From: Candidatus Gastranaerophilales bacterium
GTDB lineage: Bacteria; Cyanobacteriota; Vampirovibrionia; Gastranaerophilales; Gastranaerophilaceae
Assembly (NCBI GenBank): GCA_944327245.1
Contig: CALVHD010000001.1
Coordinates: 1 to 64,000, forward strand
Reading direction: 5' to 3'
DNA length: 64,000 bases
The first letter of the stretch is position 1. Every line of letters begins with the position of its first letter. Made by a program: the position numbers and the translations under genes. The notes beneath the pieces are model-generated. The model was not told where the DNA came from. It did no database searches and worked only from the letters and a program-made list of their open reading frames with translations. Shown here one piece after another: positions 22,813 to 55,955 of this stretch.

Positions 22813-23502
22813 ATGAAATTATTTCAAATTATATTGCTTGCTTTTTGTTTATTGTTTTTTTCAAAAGTTCAAGCTGCACACCAATTATATGCTGATATTG
22901 ACGGCATAAGCATTCCTTATGGTACAAAGCTGGACCTTGAGATGGCGCAAGATATTACAACTCAAAATATTGTTCAAGGGGATATGTTTCAAGCGTATTT
23001 AAAAAATGATATTTATGTAAATAACAAGCTTGTATTGCCTTCAAAAACAATATTTAGAGGCAGAGTATCAGAAATTGAATATTCAAAAAGTTTATCAAGA
23101 CCTGCCGTTTTATATTTAACCCTTGATCATTTGGTTACAAAAAGAGGAACGCAATTACCATTAAATGCCGGCATTGCAAGCCATTTTAGTTATATTTTGA
23201 AACCGGATGGCGCTTTAACTACTAATGGCAATTATTTTAAAGCTGTTGGAAGAGATTGGAAAAAATCAGGTCAAATTGTTCCAAGAACAATAAAATGGGG
23301 AGCAACTTCAGGTGATGATTTATTTAAAGGAGCTAAAATATTGTTTGTGCCTGTAGCTGCGCTTGGCGGTTCTATTGCTTGTGTTGGTTCAGGTGTGTAT
23401 AATACAATAGCTGATTTATTTCGCCATGGAGATGAAATAATAATTGATAAAGGTTCTGAGTTTAGTATTATATTGCTAGAAACTCTTGATATTCCGTCAT
23501 AG
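22813..23502 (+). CDS. Exported beta-rich protein sharing a domain with the SLH protein
   Basis: The 229-aa protein has a signal peptide ending KVQA near residue 22. The mature part contains QGDMFQAYLKNDIYVNNK, then LPSKTIFRGRVSEIE and AVLYLTLDHLVTKRGTQLPL. The same pattern appears near residues 440-510 of the SLH protein at 36349 (GEQFAAKTLNEITINGQ, then GSTVRGKVTEV, then SLRLSFNEI), so the two share a domain. A Gly/Ala-rich hydrophobic stretch near residues 180-200 follows. Function unknown; probably envelope-associated. It starts 3 bp after the YhaM-like gene. Confidence 0.75.
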   Translation: MKLFQIILLAFCLLFFSKVQAAHQLYADIDGISIPYGTKLDLEMAQDITTQNIVQGDMFQAYLKNDIYVNNKLVLPSKTIFRGRVSEIEYSKSLSRPAVLYLTLDHLVTKRGTQLPLNAGIASHFSYILKPDGALTTNGNYFKAVGRDWKKSGQIVPRTIKWGATSGDDLFKGAKILFVPVAALGGSIACVGSGVYNTIADLFRHGDEIIIDKGSEFSIILLETLDIPS

Positions 23503-23510
23503 GTTTTATT

Positions 23511-24005
23511 ATGAAAAAACAAGAAATTTTAAAAGAAATAAAAGATATTTTGTTAAAAAATAATCTTACAATCTCAACAGCGGAAAGCTGTACAGGAGGT
23601 CTGATAAGTTCATATTTGACTGATATAGACGGGGCAAGTAAGTTTATTTTTCAAAATTTTGTTACTTATTCCAATGAAGCAAAGATGAAATTTTTAGGGG
23701 TTTTAGCTTCAACTCTTGAAAAATACGGTGCCGTGAGCGAGCAAACAGCATATGAAATGTCATTGAGACTTAGTAAATATTCAGATTGTTCTATTGCTAC
23801 AACAGGAATTTTAGGACCAACGGGAGGAAGTATCGAAAAACCAATCGGACTTGTTTATATTTCTGTTAGATATAAGGATACAATCAAGGTTATAAAATAT
23901 ATTTCCAAAAAAGCAGACACAAATTTAAGATATAAAATTAAAAAAGATATAGCAAAACAAGCTCTGAAAGAATTTTTGGAGTTTATAAAAAATACTCTTA
24001 ATTAA
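23511..24005 (+). CDS. CinA C-terminal domain protein (nicotinamide-nucleotide amidase type)
   Basis: The 164-aa protein has the CinA-C motif TISTAESCTGGLISSYLTDIDGASKFI near residue 20, then YSNEAKMKFLGV and the GILGPTGGSIEKPIGLVYI block. It matches stand-alone PncC enzymes, which deamidate NMN to NaMN. The usual AGPGG is GPTGG here. It sits 8 bp after the exported-protein gene and ends 66 bp before the TadZ-like gene. Confidence 0.88.
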   Translation: MKKQEILKEIKDILLKNNLTISTAESCTGGLISSYLTDIDGASKFIFQNFVTYSNEAKMKFLGVLASTLEKYGAVSEQTAYEMSLRLSKYSDCSIATTGILGPTGGSIEKPIGLVYISVRYKDTIKVIKYISKKADTNLRYKIKKDIAKQALKEFLEFIKNTLN

Positions 24006-24071: not shown

Positions 24072-25256
24072 ATGATTAAAACAGTTGTTATTGATAAAAC
24101 TGAAAATTCAAAAGAAATAATGGCATCATTTTTGAACAATATTGATGATGTAGAGCTTTTGGGTTCTTTTGACACTTTTTCTAAAAATACTTTTAATCCT
24201 CGAGAAATTAATTTGATTGTTTTTGATGTATGTTTAAAGAATTTAGACGAAACAATCAAAGAAATAAAAAAATTAAAAGAGCAAAATTCTAAACTTGGAT
24301 TTATAGCCGTATCATATGAGATAAACTCGGAATTAACCGCAGCTATATTAAAAGAAGGAGTTGAGGATTTTTTATTGAAGCCTTTAATTCCAAATATTTT
24401 AGAAGCCTCAATTAAAAAAATTACCTCAAAGAATGTAAATATATCTAAGGCAAATACTATTTGCGTTTTTTCAAATAAAGCCGGAGTCGGAAAAACTTCA
24501 ATTGCGGTTAATTTGGCTTATGAATTGTCTAAAAAAACTCAAGATAAAATTTGTTTGTTAGATTTAAGTTTTAATTCTGAAGATGTTATGACATTTTTGA
24601 ATATTAAGTCAAAACAAAGTGCGGATTTTGTTATAAATAATCTTGAAAATGCAGACAATGAATTATTTTTATCATTATTGAACAGTTATCAAAATTCTAA
24701 TTTATACGTATTTTCATTGCAGGATGAATTTAATTTAAATTTTAAGATAAATATTCAAACCGTAAACAAAATATTAAATGCATTGAAGAATATTTTTTCT
24801 TATATAGTTGTTGATCTTACAAGCGTTATTGACGAGAGAACAGTTTCAATATTAAATGTGATGGATTTAATATTGATGGTTGGATTAGAGAATTTGGCCT
24901 CAATCAGAAATTTGCAAAAATGTTGTGAATTGTTTGATAGTATAGGATATAACAAGGAAAAGGTTAAGCTGATTATAAACAGGCATATTGAAAATTCTGA
25001 AATTACAATAAACGATATTGAAAAAACGATTGCAAAAGAAGTCTTTTTCAAAATTCCAAATAATTATTTGACACTTATTGATGCTATAAATATCGGCAGG
25101 GCCGTAGGAGAGGTTAATCCTCAATCTAATATTGCAAAAGCATATAAAAATTTAGCAAATGAAATATATAATATGGATTTTATGAGTCTTAATAAGGATA
25201 ATAAATCCGGCTATAATCATGGGGTATTTAATTTACTTCGCAGAATGGGAGAATAA
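24072..25256 (+). CDS. TadZ/CpaE-like protein: receiver-like domain + MinD-type ATPase
   Basis: The 394-aa protein has an N-terminal receiver-like fold (residues 1-118, with Asp8, Asp52 in LIVFDV and Lys103 in LLKP) and a C-terminal P-loop ATPase with the deviant Walker A FSNKAGVGKTS (Lys136, Lys141). That order is typical of TadZ/CpaE, which localise Tad-pilus machinery at a pole. Here the receiver keeps its Asp and Lys, unlike many TadZ proteins. The CpaF-like gene follows 3 bp later, but no other tad gene is in the window. Localisation of an assembly or signalling complex is the inferred role. Confidence 0.82.
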   Translation: MIKTVVIDKTENSKEIMASFLNNIDDVELLGSFDTFSKNTFNPREINLIVFDVCLKNLDETIKEIKKLKEQNSKLGFIAVSYEINSELTAAILKEGVEDFLLKPLIPNILEASIKKITSKNVNISKANTICVFSNKAGVGKTSIAVNLAYELSKKTQDKICLLDLSFNSEDVMTFLNIKSKQSADFVINNLENADNELFLSLLNSYQNSNLYVFSLQDEFNLNFKINIQTVNKILNALKNIFSYIVVDLTSVIDERTVSILNVMDLILMVGLENLASIRNLQKCCELFDSIGYNKEKVKLIINRHIENSEITINDIEKTIAKEVFFKIPNNYLTLIDAINIGRAVGEVNPQSNIAKAYKNLANEIYNMDFMSLNKDNKSGYNHGVFNLLRRMGE

Positions 25257-25259
25257 AAA

Positions 25260-26657
25260 TTGTCATTAAAAGATAGATTACATAATACAAAACAAGTTGA
25301 AAGAAAAGAAGAACAACAGCAGGTACAATATTATCAAAATAGTGAAATAGCTTCTAAAATAGATTCTTTGGGCGTTATTGACACCTTTTTGGCTGATGAC
25401 GAATTAAATTCTATTTATGTAAATGGAGCAAAAGATATTTATATTGAAAGAAACGGAAAAATCCATAAAAGCACAAGCAGTTTTAGAGATAATGTGCAGT
25501 TAATTAATGTAATAAAAAAATATGCTCAAAATATTGGTTATAAAATAGACGAAAAAAATCCGTATATTAAATTTAATCATAAACTTGGAATAAATGTATC
25601 TGCAACCTTGCCTCCTTTGTCGTCTTGTGCTGTTATGTTTGTAAAATGCTATAAAGATAAGCATGCGTCATTTCAGCTTCTTCAAGAAGAGCAAAGCATT
25701 TCAAAAGAAATTGCATTAATTTTGGAAGTAATTGCAACGCTTAGAACAAATATTATCATAGCAGGTGAAAGAAACACTCTTAAAACAACTGTATTGTCAG
25801 CATTGTCAAAAAATCTCCCTTCAAACAACAGAGGTGTTATACTGGACTATAAATCCGAAATCAAAAATGATGTTTCAAATTTTTCTAATTTTGATTTTTC
25901 AAATCTTTCAGATAAAAAAGAGGAACTGGATATTTTAAATTCTATTTTAATATCTAATCCTGACAGAATTTTTATTAATGATTGCGATGATGAAACTTTA
26001 GGTTTTATTGATGAAAAAGTAATTTCCGGCTTAAAAGGGGTCGTGTTGACTATTGAAGCAAAGAGTCCAAAGGAAGCTTTTGAAAAAATCGCTTTTGGAA
26101 TTTTGAAAAATAACCCAAAGCTTGATTATAATCTTGCTTGTTTATTGGCTTACAAAATTGCGGAATTGGTTATTTTTGTTAAAAAAGATGAATTAAATAA
26201 AAGAGTAATATCCTCAATTTCTCAAATTAATATTGATATGAATGATAATTATTCTATCAGAGATATTTTCCGCTATAATCAAGCAGAACATAAATCTTGC
26301 GGTTTTATTCCGGACTTTTTTGAAGAAACAAAACTAAATTCATTGCCGATTAACTCAAATATTTTCGATAAAGATTATAAGCACACATATTATAAATCTG
26401 CAAAAAATGAAGTTTTATATGAACAAAGTAAAAAAGTTAATCTTGAAATTTTGAAAAAGTTTAAAAAAGACCTGAGTATTCAAGAAGAAGAAAAACAGGA
26501 AGAAAAAGAACCTTCGGCAGAAGAATTAATGATTAAAGCTCAAGAAAAGTTTGAAGAATTAAAGCAAAATGCTCAAAATAATCAAGAATCTTTGGATGAC
26601 GTTGTTTTGGATTTAGAACAGGAAGCTATTCAACAAGAAGACAATGGAAATATATAA
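25260..26657 (+). CDS. Degenerate CpaF/TadA-like secretion ATPase (predicted inactive)
   Basis: The 465-aa protein aligns with CpaF: the N-terminal part has LADDELNSIYVNGAKDIYIERNGKI (residues 44-68), and the core shows TNIIIAGERNTLKTTVLSAL where CpaF has GGTGSGKTT. Walker A is GERNTLKTT (169-177), so the glycine before Lys175 is Leu. The NPDRIFINDCDDE segment (233-245) has Asp241 where the catalytic Glu of GEVRG stands, and LTIEAKSP replaces TVHANSP, removing the conserved His. The C-terminal 70 residues are Gln/Glu-rich and absent from CpaF. It is probably a non-hydrolysing partner of the TadZ-like protein. It overlaps ribD by 14 bp. Confidence 0.8.
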   Translation: MSLKDRLHNTKQVERKEEQQQVQYYQNSEIASKIDSLGVIDTFLADDELNSIYVNGAKDIYIERNGKIHKSTSSFRDNVQLINVIKKYAQNIGYKIDEKNPYIKFNHKLGINVSATLPPLSSCAVMFVKCYKDKHASFQLLQEEQSISKEIALILEVIATLRTNIIIAGERNTLKTTVLSALSKNLPSNNRGVILDYKSEIKNDVSNFSNFDFSNLSDKKEELDILNSILISNPDRIFINDCDDETLGFIDEKVISGLKGVVLTIEAKSPKEAFEKIAFGILKNNPKLDYNLACLLAYKIAELVIFVKKDELNKRVISSISQINIDMNDNYSIRDIFRYNQAEHKSCGFIPDFFEETKLNSLPINSNIFDKDYKHTYYKSAKNEVLYEQSKKVNLEILKKFKKDLSIQEEEKQEEKEPSAEELMIKAQEKFEELKQNAQNNQESLDDVVLDLEQEAIQQEDNGNI

Positions 26658-27696
26658 AAAATTAATGAAAGAATGTCTTACCCTTGCGAAGCATTCAAAG
26701 GGTAAAAATATGCCTAATCCCTATGTGGGTGCAATTATTTATGATGAAGAAAAAAAGAAAATAATTTCAACAGGCTATCATAAGGAATTTGGAAAAGCAC
26801 ACGCTGAAGTTGAAGCAATAAAAAATGCCAAAGGAAATACTACAAATAAAACTTTAATTGTTAATCTTGAGCCTTGTTCGCATTTTGGAAAAACTCCTCC
26901 ATGTGCTGATTTAATTATAAAATCAGGAATTAAAAAGGTTGTTATTGCTATGGCGGATGTAAACCCTATAGTAAGATATAATGGAATAAAAAAACTAAAA
27001 GAGGCTTCTGTTGAAGTTGTTTTAGGAATTTTAGAGGATGAAGCAAAAGAATTAAATAAGGTTTTTATAAAAAATATTTTAACCAAAAAGCCTTATGTAA
27101 TGCTTAAAACTGCAACTACATTGGATTCTAGAATTGCAACAATTAAAAATAAATCAAAGTGGATTACAAACGAAAAAGCAAGGCTTGAAGTGCAAAAATT
27201 GAGAAGTTCTTATCAGGCAATTATGTCTGCTTCGGGAACGATTTTAGCCGATAATCCAAGATTAAATGTTCGCATAAAAAATAAAAAATCTCCGATAAGA
27301 ATAATTTTTGATCCAAATAATAAAATTCCTTTAGATTATAATGTTTTTAATGATGATGGTATTAGAAAAATTTTAATAAATAATTCAAAAATTACCTTAA
27401 AAAAAGATATCGAACAAATTAATTTTACTAATTTTGATGAATTATTTAAAAAACTCTATGAAATGAAAATATATTCAATAATGATTGAAGCAGGTCAGGG
27501 TTTTAATTCTTTGCTTTTAAAAGACGGGGAAGTTGATGAAATTAATCATTTTTTTGCGCCAAAAATTTTTGGTTCAGGAATGAATTTTGTGGATAACATT
27601 TTAATTGATGAAGTTGATGAAGCAATTGAGATTGAAAATATAAAAATAAAAAGACTTGATGATAATTTTCTAATTAATGGTAAAATTAAAAAATAA
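26644..27696 (+). CDS. ribD: Bifunctional riboflavin enzyme RibD (deaminase + reductase)
   Basis: The 350-aa protein has the zinc deaminase domain with HAEVEAI and PCSHFGKTPPCAD near residues 51-86, then a reductase domain from about residue 145 (KPYVMLKTATTLDSRIAT, ITNEKARLEVQKLRS, IMIEAGQGFNSLLL). It deaminates and then reduces the pyrimidine intermediate in riboflavin synthesis. No other rib gene is in the window. Translation overlaps the CpaF-like gene by 14 bp, and aroQ follows after 12 bp with a clear AAAGGAAA leader. Confidence 0.93.
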   Translation: MEIYKKLMKECLTLAKHSKGKNMPNPYVGAIIYDEEKKKIISTGYHKEFGKAHAEVEAIKNAKGNTTNKTLIVNLEPCSHFGKTPPCADLIIKSGIKKVVIAMADVNPIVRYNGIKKLKEASVEVVLGILEDEAKELNKVFIKNILTKKPYVMLKTATTLDSRIATIKNKSKWITNEKARLEVQKLRSSYQAIMSASGTILADNPRLNVRIKNKKSPIRIIFDPNNKIPLDYNVFNDDGIRKILINNSKITLKKDIEQINFTNFDELFKKLYEMKIYSIMIEAGQGFNSLLLKDGEVDEINHFFAPKIFGSGMNFVDNILIDEVDEAIEIENIKIKRLDDNFLINGKIKK

Positions 27697-36348: not shown

Positions 36349-38217
36349 TTATTGTCCAAAGGCAATAGTGATTTTTTCTTTAGGGTTAACTTTTGAAATT
36401 GGTGTTCCTGATGAATCAACAAGATATGCCAATTCTTCACCTGATGTTTGGAATAATCCCATAGTTCCTGATAAAGCAGTTCTTGTTAAGTCAACAGGTG
36501 CTTTAAGGGTAGTTTTGATACCGTCTTGATAGCTTCTGCCTGCGGCTTTGAATTTACCTGATAATAGTTCAGATGTACCTACACCTGTTTGATCAAGTAA
36601 TCCTTCAGCAGCGTTAGCAATACCAATTGCGGCACCACCAATTGTTCTGCCTGCAGTACCAATTAATGAACCTGTCCAAGTGAATGGGAATTGAACTAAT
36701 CTTAACAACGGATTAATATCTTTTTGTCTTTCAACTTTAGCAGTTAAGATTTGTTTTGGAAGTTGCGCTTTGCAACCGTCGCAATTAATGATTTCATTAA
36801 ATGATAGTCTTAGAGAACCTTGATTATTTTTGCTTGGTCTTGTAACTTCGGTTACTTTACCTCTAACAGTTGAACCGCATGGGAATACTTGACCGTTAAT
36901 TGTTATTTCGTTCAATGTTTTAGCGGCAAATTGTTCACCTACGTTTGCATGTTTTGCGTTAATAATATCGTTCATTGTTAATTGCAATGTAGGAATTGTA
37001 ACCTTTGTTTCGCGTTCTATGTAAGTTTTTCCGCCAAGATCTTGAGATGCGGTTTTTGTAGATTTATCATAACCTCCGGCAATTCTCATACCTTGCAACA
37101 TTGAGCTGGCTTCAGCACGTGTTGTTTTATCGTTTGGTCTAATGTAGTCTTGATTTCTTTCGTTTTTAAGAGCGCCGTTATCAATAGCTTTAGCTACGTG
37201 TTCTTTTGCCCAGCAAGGAACTTGAGAACCATCTTTATATTTTGATAAGATTTCGTCTGCTTTAGCTTCATCCATAGGACAGCTTAAACCTTTGGCCATG
37301 ATTGTCAGTGCTTCTGTTCTTGTTATGTTTTCATTAGGTGCAAACATGTCGTTTGATTTGCCTTTAATCATATTTTCAGCAACACCTTTTGAGATATAAT
37401 CATGTGCCCAGTGATTTTTTGGAACATCTTTAAATGTTAATGAATCGCAGTCAGAAGTTACATCAAGATTGTAGCCTTTAACAACCATTGTTGCCATTTC
37501 TGCACGTGAAACTTTTCTGTTTGGTTTAAACATGCCATCCGGATAACCTTCAAGAACACATTGTTCTGTTAGACGGTTAATATCGCTGCTTGCCCAATAG
37601 CTGTCAAATACATCGGGGTATTGTTGGGCTGTAATATCAGCGGCAGCACCGGTAAAGCCTAAACAAGAGCATGGTTCTTTTGATGTTTTAATGATGTCCA
37701 TTGTGGTTGTTGAATATACGTTTTGTGGTGCATCGCAGTCATATTTCGGCATATCGTCCGCACTGATAACCGGAGCAGCTCCGCCTGTTGGGCAACCGCA
37801 ATCAACGGGAACACCTCTGTATGAGGGTGTTAATAAAGAATCATTAATGGTTGCGTTATTTAGCTCCTCCCCCACTTGTGCGGTGTTAGAATTTGAATAA
37901 ATAGCATTCGGATAAGCATAAGTTTGTTGATTTAGGGGTTTTGTTTCAATGCAAGGAGCTGCGGCTCCTGTAGGACAATCGCAATCAGATTTTTTCTTTT
38001 CGCAAGGATCGCATTTTTCTTTTTTCTTTTCACAAGCGCAGTCTGCTTGTTTGCATTTTGAGCATGTAGCATTGTCAGGTGTTACAATTTCAGATTTTTT
38101 ATTACATCCGCAGTCATCACCTGCAACAGGACATGCCGCAAATGACATAGGAACAGTTAGCGCCAATGCGCATAAACTAATTGTAGCGCCAGATAATAAA
38201 CTTCTTTTGATAGTCAT
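36349..38217 (-). CDS. SLH-domain envelope protein with Cys-rich N-terminal part
   Basis: The protein has 622 residues from ATG 38217, preceded by a strong GGAGG. A signal peptide (IKRSLLSGATISLCALALTV, cut near AFA) leads into a region with about 20 cysteines (DDCGCNKK, CSKCKQADCACEKKKEKC), including three CxC...TGAAA-like units. Three SLH repeats follow (about residues 215-395; YPDGMFKPNRKVSRAEMATM, APNENITRTEALTIMAKG, IRPNDKTTRAEASSML). The C-terminal third contains a domain shared with the 229-aa protein at 22813 and a Gly-rich segment. SLH domains bind pyruvylated wall polymer; in cyanobacterial relatives they anchor outer-membrane proteins. No beta-barrel porin domain is evident. Confidence 0.85.
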   Translation of the reverse strand: MTIKRSLLSGATISLCALALTVPMSFAACPVAGDDCGCNKKSEIVTPDNATCSKCKQADCACEKKKEKCDPCEKKKSDCDCPTGAAAPCIETKPLNQQTYAYPNAIYSNSNTAQVGEELNNATINDSLLTPSYRGVPVDCGCPTGGAAPVISADDMPKYDCDAPQNVYSTTTMDIIKTSKEPCSCLGFTGAAADITAQQYPDVFDSYWASSDINRLTEQCVLEGYPDGMFKPNRKVSRAEMATMVVKGYNLDVTSDCDSLTFKDVPKNHWAHDYISKGVAENMIKGKSNDMFAPNENITRTEALTIMAKGLSCPMDEAKADEILSKYKDGSQVPCWAKEHVAKAIDNGALKNERNQDYIRPNDKTTRAEASSMLQGMRIAGGYDKSTKTASQDLGGKTYIERETKVTIPTLQLTMNDIINAKHANVGEQFAAKTLNEITINGQVFPCGSTVRGKVTEVTRPSKNNQGSLRLSFNEIINCDGCKAQLPKQILTAKVERQKDINPLLRLVQFPFTWTGSLIGTAGRTIGGAAIGIANAAEGLLDQTGVGTSELLSGKFKAAGRSYQDGIKTTLKAPVDLTRTALSGTMGLFQTSGEELAYLVDSSGTPISKVNPKEKITIAFGQ

Positions 38218-38344
38218 TTTTCCTCCTTTTATGTTGCATTTATTTTTTATACAAAAACGCACAATTTTTATTCTAAAATTATGCGTTTATTTTATTTTGT
38301 ATTCATTACCATAAAAGGTTATCCGAAATGCTAATTGTTTTAGT

Positions 38345-55142: not shown

Positions 55143-55955
55143 ATGGCAGGTTCTGTTATTGTTATTACATCTGGAAAAGGCGGCGTGGGAAAGACTACCA
55201 CATCTGCCAATATAGGCACAGCCCTTGCTCATATGGGCAATAAAGTTGTTTTAATAGATACTGATATCGGGTTAAGAAATCTTGATTTATTGCTTGGTTT
55301 GGAAAATCGAATTGTTTATACAATAGTAGATGTTGTTGAAGAACGTTGTAAACTAAAACAAGCCCTTGTAAAAGACAAGAAAAATCCTAATCTTTGTTTA
55401 TTGGCTGCAGCTCAAACCCGTGATAAATCTGCAGTTGATGCTGAACAGTTGAAAGATATTTGTGAACAACTTAAACAAGATTTTGACTATGTCCTTGTTG
55501 ATTGCCCTGCAGGAATTGAACAAGGTTTTCAAAATGCCGTAGCGGGCGCTAATGAAGCAATTGTTGTAACAACTCCTGAAATGAGTGCAATTCGTGATGC
55601 TGACAGAATTATCGGCTTATTGGAGTCAAAAGAGGGTGTTGAAAAATACAGGTTGCTTGTAAATCGTGTAAGACCTAAGTTAATTAAATCCAACGATATG
55701 ATGGGTGTGGATGATGTTGTTGAGATTTTATCCTGCGATTTAATCGGGGTAATTCCTGAAGATACAAACATTATTACATCTACAAATAAAGGTGAACCCG
55801 TAGTAAATGACGAAAAATCATTGGCTGGCAGAGCCTATATGAACGTTGCAAGAAGAATAATGGGTGAAGATGTACCATTATTAGATATAGATGAACCTAC
55901 AACATTAATAGACAAGATTAAGAAATTCTTTGCAACCAAGAAAGCGCAGGGCTAA
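55143..55955 (+). CDS. minD: Septum-site ATPase MinD
   Basis: The 270-aa protein has the deviant Walker A ITSGKGGVGKTTTSANIG at residue 8, the switch ADTDIGLRNLD-type block (here LIDTDIGLRNLDLLLG), Walker B YVLVDCPAGIEQGF, and a C-terminal amphipathic membrane-targeting helix (LIDKIKKFFATKK). It oscillates or clusters at the membrane with MinE and recruits MinC. It is followed at once by minE. Confidence 0.96.
   Translation: MAGSVIVITSGKGGVGKTTTSANIGTALAHMGNKVVLIDTDIGLRNLDLLLGLENRIVYTIVDVVEERCKLKQALVKDKKNPNLCLLAAAQTRDKSAVDAEQLKDICEQLKQDFDYVLVDCPAGIEQGFQNAVAGANEAIVVTTPEMSAIRDADRIIGLLESKEGVEKYRLLVNRVRPKLIKSNDMMGVDDVVEILSCDLIGVIPEDTNIITSTNKGEPVVNDEKSLAGRAYMNVARRIMGEDVPLLDIDEPTTLIDKIKKFFATKKAQG

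Follow-up and report, generated by a model that had tools for sequence, protein, structure and literature searches.

Organization of the tadZ-cpaF* locus

Between cinA and ribD in the window (the whole stretch of DNA analysed, 64,000 nucleotides of a Candidatus Gastranaerophilales genome) lie two intact open reading frames, the second starting 3 nt past the stop codon of the first. They encode a TadZ/CpaE-like protein (hereafter TadZ) and a CpaF-like protein (hereafter CpaF*).

23511-24005, + strand: cinA C-terminal-domain gene, flanking the ancestral tad site on its upstream side
24072-25256, + strand: TadZ/CpaE-like protein, 394 aa; receiver (residues 1-118), MinD-type ATPase, C-terminal helix
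24471-24497, + strand: TadZ deviant Walker A SNKAGVGKT (residues 134-142), with K141/T142 in 102/102 relatives
25218-25250, + strand: TadZ C-terminal helix, residues 383-393, in the AF2 model, preceded by a low-confidence linker
25260-26657, + strand: CpaF-like protein (CpaF*), 465 aa, TTG start, motor residues lost
25263-25280, + strand: CpaF* N-terminal motif SLKDRL (residues 2-7), kept from full-length CpaF to 98-aa stubs
25764-25790, + strand: CpaF* altered Walker A GERNTLKTT (residues 169-177), Gly replaced by Leu174, K175-T176-T177 kept
25857-25859, + strand: CpaF* Asp-box Glu200 (CpaF E312), invariant in 25/25 of the genus
25980-25982, + strand: CpaF* Asp241, replacing by alignment the Walker B catalytic Glu (CpaF E357)
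26055-26057, + strand: CpaF* Glu266, replacing by alignment the His-box His (CpaF H382)
26358-26390, + strand: CpaF* C-terminal element NIFDKDYKHTY, invariant columns in the alignment
26644-27696, + strand: ribD, downstream flank, overlapping the end of CpaF* by 14 nt

Beyond ribD are aroQ, thiL and ispD. Beside cinA, at 22813-23502 (+), is the gene for a conserved, secreted-looking protein of 229 aa with no Pfam match; its equivalents adjoin cinA at loci L046, L040 and L149, and visual comparison suggests a resemblance to the C-terminal part of an SLH-type protein encoded at 36349-38262 (-).

TadZ

TadZ is made up of a receiver-like domain followed by a MinD-type ATPase with a deviant Walker A. 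It is assigned to Response_reg, ParA and CbiA by Pfam and to minD and CpaE_hom by NCBIfam, and its predicted structure (AF2, pLDDT 83.6) finds ParA/MinD proteins and Eubacterium rectale TadZ (PDB 3fkq) in Foldseek searches. The E. rectale protein has the same receiver and MinD-like ATPase architecture but was described as a Tad pilus protein, whereas the pilus genes are gone in the window's genus. A first-pass annotation of this DNA had TadZ keeping receiver Asp52 and Lys103 and the MinD-type P-loop, and this holds, with D8, D52, S81, K103, K136, K141, D164 and D248 all present in the window. Among relatives the core ATPase residues K141, T142, D164 and D248 occur in 102/102 sequences and the signature K136 in 100/102. 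The helix of residues 383-393 falls inside a tail, NHGVFNLLRRMGE, that is conserved across the genus; it is amphipathic, with a hydrophobic moment of about 0.7, and is a candidate MinD-like membrane-targeting element. Caulobacter CpaE likewise has a C-terminal amphipathic helix (PMC13170226). That TadZ could be the MinD of the cell is ruled out, a separate MinD being encoded at 55152-55931 (+) and scoring 409 bits to TIGR01968.

The TadZ profile matches 249 of the 286 genomes of the order, and TadZ adjoins CpaF* in every species of the genus whose locus was examined. In genus g16, TadZ was undetected in 7/7 listed genomes (G041, G065, G070, G114, G145, G178 and G221), which offer a natural comparison for the role of the module. 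The receiver residues are well kept in the window's genus (D52 in 33/35, K103 in 35/35), and phosphorylation control of the pair, which the first-pass annotation had allowed for, is a weak possibility there. The receiver Lys is kept in 5/38 TadZ from sister lineages with a reduced operon, and since it is lost in most of them, phosphorylation of the receiver is not a general requirement.

Active site of CpaF*

CpaF* matches Pfam T2SSE, its top phmmer match is Caulobacter CpaF (E 6e-24), and its AF2 core (pLDDT >85) finds CpaF 8rjf as top Foldseek match (E 2e-24); by sequence and predicted structure the overall fold and domain order of CpaF are present. The active site was compared with that of Caulobacter crescentus CpaF, in which R217, R223, R347, E312 and E357 are the active-site residues (PMC11300603), and nine positions were tested (R217, R223, G286, K287, T288, E312, R347, E357 and H382). 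Aligned on this reference, CpaF* has lost the Walker A Gly (G286 to Leu174), the catalytic Glu (E357 to Asp241) and the conserved His (H382 to Glu266), exactly the three losses that the first-pass annotation had reported. Three more went unmentioned there, with R217 replaced by Asn106, R223 by Asn112 and R347 by Ile231. The residues retained are K287 (K175), T288 (T176) and E312 (E200).

The same pattern extends over the genus. E357, R347 and H382 are absent in 25/25 CpaF*, R217 and R223 are both lost in nearly all, and the Walker A Gly position holds Leu in 23, Phe in one and Gln in one (n=25); K287, T288 and E312 are present in 25/25 and K-T-T is invariant. All nine residues are intact in 15/15 CpaF from full tad operons of the order. 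In other reduced lineages, later loci included, E357 is kept in 1/34 CpaF and H382 in 0/34, with Walker A full in some and lost in others. ATP hydrolysis has, on these residues, very probably been lost from CpaF*; nucleotide binding may remain, because K-T-T and the Asp-box Glu are retained. By descent and fold CpaF* is a CpaF; judged by its residues, it is a motor no longer.

Absence of a Tad pilus

The annotation saw no other tad genes with the pair, and this is borne out genome-wide, as far as tested, in a metagenome-assembled genome that is 97% complete. Its sole T2SSF protein is a two-domain PilC of 415 aa adjoining PilB. Across the genus a search for single-domain T2SSF proteins of TadB/TadC size (about 300 aa) found none, returning two-domain PilC-type proteins (~400 aa) only; the Tad secretin N-domain PF13629 occurs in 0/24 genomes of the genus, and CpaB and CpaC were not found at the locus in the genus. 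Outside it, PF13629 is found in 9/15 relatives, with the Tad secretin domain in families f2-f5 and single-domain platform proteins in f2-f4 (genera and families are given as codes; gene calls in relatives are ORF-based, and metagenome-assembled genomes, MAGs, can miss genes). The pair is not a Tad pilus system, because the defining parts were tested for and are missing, and by gene content no Tad pilus can be made in the window's genus. Annotating Tad pili from tadZ or cpaF matches alone is unsafe.

The first-pass annotation had also raised the possibility that a second, intact CpaF is encoded elsewhere; whole-genome CpaF searches returned none. Of the other T2SSE matches, none matched as CpaF: three are long frames of PilB/PilT type, a typing based on open-frame length and on the position of PilB beside PilC, and one is a contig-edge fragment. 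By eye, the fragment (L004, contig C25:1-700) appears to be a PilB paralogue that has diverged; its Walker A reads GSSLSGKT and the rest is eroded. A CpaF match in genome G208 (L120) resembles conjugative ATPases of the TrbB/VirB11 type and was excluded from the CpaF* counts.

Reduction in place

In genera g31 and g40 a full CpaB-CpaC-TadZ-CpaF-TadB-TadC operon with an intact motor, checked with Pfam, lies between cinA and ribD. The order of the flanks in these sister genera, HD-229aa-cinA-[tad operon]-ribD-aroQ-thiL-ispD, is that of the window. Because the full operon occupies the identical site in sister genera, the pair is the product of reduction in place. What the first-pass annotation described as a "metabolic gene run" (cinA-like, ribD, aroQ) is in fact the place where the full tad operon stood ancestrally. 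An IFDxxYxHTY element near the C-terminus is common to CpaF* and intact CpaF of the same family and is not found in CpaF of f2-f4.

Weak CpaF matches are present in many genera of the family (order-wide scan, 286 genomes), and the first 25 reduced loci examined carry TadZ and CpaF* without CpaB, CpaC, TadB or TadC. In a RpoB/RpoC tree of 40 genomes, the window's genus groups with the full-operon genera g31, g35 and g40 (support 100), a large reduced clade is sister to full-operon g47 (support 100), and reduced g33, g44 and g48 form a separate branch (support 100) split from the rest with support 95; the nodes around g30 and g39 are weak (49-66). If whole operons are not regained, this topology requires no fewer than three independent reductions within the family, and in each case TadZ and a motor-dead CpaF were left. 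A TadZ tree places the window's genus and the large reduced clade in separate groups, both with 100% support, and leaves their branching order unresolved. Neither the reduction in place nor its recurrence was seen in the first-pass annotation, which also passed over the retained K-T-T and Asp-box Glu and the graded erosion of CpaF described below.

Conservation and selection

CpaF* is present in 27/27 sampled species of the genus (24/24 genus genomes from one search and three further species from another), as an intact frame with the altered motif GxxNTLKTT, and the losses of E357, R347 and H382 seen in the window are common to the genus (n=25). Across the four most closely related species, dN/dS lies at 0.10-0.13 in CpaF* and at 0.09-0.13 in TadZ, compared with 0.07-0.145 for the neighbours cinA, ribD, aroQ and thiL; the ratios are approximate because dS is near 1. 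Judged by these values, both genes are under strong purifying selection. Close relatives with intact Walker A and Glu, which the annotation had named as the finding that would point to a recent pseudogene or a sequencing error, were looked for, and there are none in the genus; all intact CpaF motors belong to other genera and families and lie in full tad operons.

Graded erosion of CpaF and its N-terminal motif

The length of CpaF across the family runs from ~480 aa down to stubs of 98-151 aa. The stubs, which follow TadZ in g19, g20, g42, g27 and one g15 genome, correspond to the CpaF N-terminus, and the g27 stub is the motif and a short remnant with little else. In g37 a solo TadZ stands between cinA and ribD, and in g32, g43 and g46 TadZ has no CpaF gene after it. 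Because these four genera keep TadZ without a following CpaF, CpaF* is not indispensable everywhere.

The N-terminal motif, defined as [LIFMV]x[DENSTA]R[LFIY] within the first 20 residues, is present in 24/25 CpaF* of the genus, 14/15 CpaF of full operons, 31/34 of other reduced lineages and 9/9 stubs against a background of 4.3% of 696 control ORFs, an enrichment that is descriptive because the pattern was chosen after the sequences had been inspected. Start-codon choice accounts for four of the five misses, in which the motif follows a little further downstream; the fifth (L121, genome G168 of g39) is a CpaF-like gene with no TadZ neighbour in a genome with no detectable TadZ. L121 seems to retain the catalytic Glu. 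The motif is a short, variable and weakly positive element with a conserved Arg, strongly enriched and of variable net charge, its mean charge being +2.2 in the genus and +0.5 in other reduced lineages, some of which are negative. It may serve another purpose, because it is also present in intact CpaF. A C-terminal SLxxRL-like motif was also considered and rejected, since it lies in the last 20 aa of 3/25 CpaF* of the genus against a background of 22%; its pattern in full operons and in the other reduced lineages is suggestive.

A proposed role for the pair, and alternatives

Our preferred reading, with a probability of about 0.6, is that the pair is a stand-alone TadZ positioning module left from a full Tad operon, with motor-dead CpaF* as partner or scaffold. 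The sequences themselves show the origin of the pair, the lost motor residues, the purifying selection, the repeated reduction and the integrity of TadZ. From the stretch between cinA and ribD, CpaB, CpaC, TadB and TadC have disappeared; hydrolysis has very probably gone from the CpaF motor, and TadZ would have stayed an active MinD-type ATPase. TadZ, with its receiver, ATP-dependent dimer and C-terminal membrane helix, would probably cycle on the membrane, and CpaF* would form a complex with it as dedicated partner and scaffold through a CpaF-TadZ contact inherited from the pilus machine. The SLKDRL peptide is a probable TadZ-binding, and perhaps ATPase-activating, element. The reused secretion motor of the first-pass annotation survives in this proposal in that the catalytic residues are lost and the protein is kept beside TadZ, apparently for a non-pilus role.

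Three lines of evidence together favour a TadZ-centred module with the CpaF* N-terminus as contact. In Caulobacter, six CpaE dimers have been fitted around the CpaF hexamer, with predicted CpaE-CpaF contacts (PMC13170226), and the partners of ParA/MinD ATPases generally act via a short charged N-terminal peptide (PMC10241942, PMC13170346). Single proteins of about 725-770 aa from other classes of the phylum (L168, L170, L172, L173, L176, L177, L180 and L184) combine an N-terminal MinD-like domain with an intact CpaF, which argues for a physical link between MinD-like proteins and CpaF. In these fusions the MinD part is the altered one, its P-loop Lys being replaced (KGGVGAS, KGGVGRS), the reverse of the window's pair, where CpaF is degenerate. 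A more far-reaching version, which we put forward tentatively and at somewhat below even odds, is that in parallel, in at least three lineages of the family, a pilus motor was converted into the activating partner and scaffold of its former positioning ATPase, giving a self-standing MinD-type system with a new cargo; the 98-151-aa stubs would then be natural minimal versions that reveal the part of CpaF required by TadZ.

Other explanations have to account for the same conservation. That TadZ alone does the retained job, with CpaF* a vestigial, eroding passenger kept by operon structure or a minor modulator, would explain why TadZ persists in most genomes of the order while CpaF shrinks to stubs or vanishes, as at the solo TadZ of g37; we consider it unlikely: in the window's genus CpaF* is found in every sampled species at a dN/dS of about 0.1 and with invariant K-T-T, Asp-box Glu and C-terminal element. 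The many missing active-site residues, and the erosion in some sister lineages, could also suggest a decaying pseudogene or an assembly error, but the 27/27 species, the intact frames, the shared GxxNTLKTT motif and the low dN/dS rule out a recent pseudogene or sequencing error and make decay of any kind extremely improbable.

Two further readings keep the pair tied to a pilus or a Tad-like machine. An accessory role, e.g., positioning or gating, for the remaining type IVa pilus (PilB/PilC) is suggested by the PilB-, PilC- and PilT-type genes of the genome and by the evolution of TadZ and CpaF alongside a pilus platform. It is nevertheless disfavoured, and in our judgement quite improbable, because no T2SSF protein was detected in G014 or G249, both of which keep the pair; g41 and others likewise have TadZ but no T2SSF, a few of these absences perhaps reflecting incomplete MAGs. 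Co-occurrence with PilC is inconsistent. A still active motor whose active site is unusual, powering a diverged and unrecognised Tad-like machine, would fit the invariant P-loop Lys/Thr and Asp-box Glu, which make nucleotide binding plausible, but it would have to work with catalytic Glu, R347 and His all gone, with both other Arg gone in nearly all, and in genomes where T2SSF is of the two-domain PilC type only and the Tad secretin was found in none of 24; we give it hardly any weight. A flagellar role or cargo cannot be tested by co-occurrence, because an FlhA-family protein is found in 286/286 genomes.

Relation to known systems and significance

The pair consists of the same two proteins, with the same folds, as the cytoplasmic module of the Tad/type IVc system of Caulobacter crescentus (PMC13170226), but it stands alone, without secretin, CpaB or platform genes, and its motor active site is lost. 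Like MinD-MinE, ParA-ParB, PomZ-PomX and McdA-McdB, it joins an intact MinD-type ATPase to a genetically linked partner; the most persistent part of CpaF is a short N-terminal peptide with a conserved Arg, in which it may resemble the ParA/MinD partners. It differs from those systems in that the partner descends from a secretion motor and activation of TadZ is putative; the known activating peptides are mostly clearly positive, whereas that of CpaF* is often weakly so. In the literature searched, which was covered in part, no description of this reduced pair was found.

To our knowledge, there is no settled account of how CpaE/TadZ communicates with CpaF in Tad pili. In this family the pilus has been removed several times, the two proteins kept and CpaF pared down stepwise, a natural series that points to the CpaF N-terminus as a candidate contact. 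The series also suggests how a secretion machine could give rise to a MinD-type positioning system, and it makes the pair a candidate for spatial organisation in a gut lineage that has been little studied.
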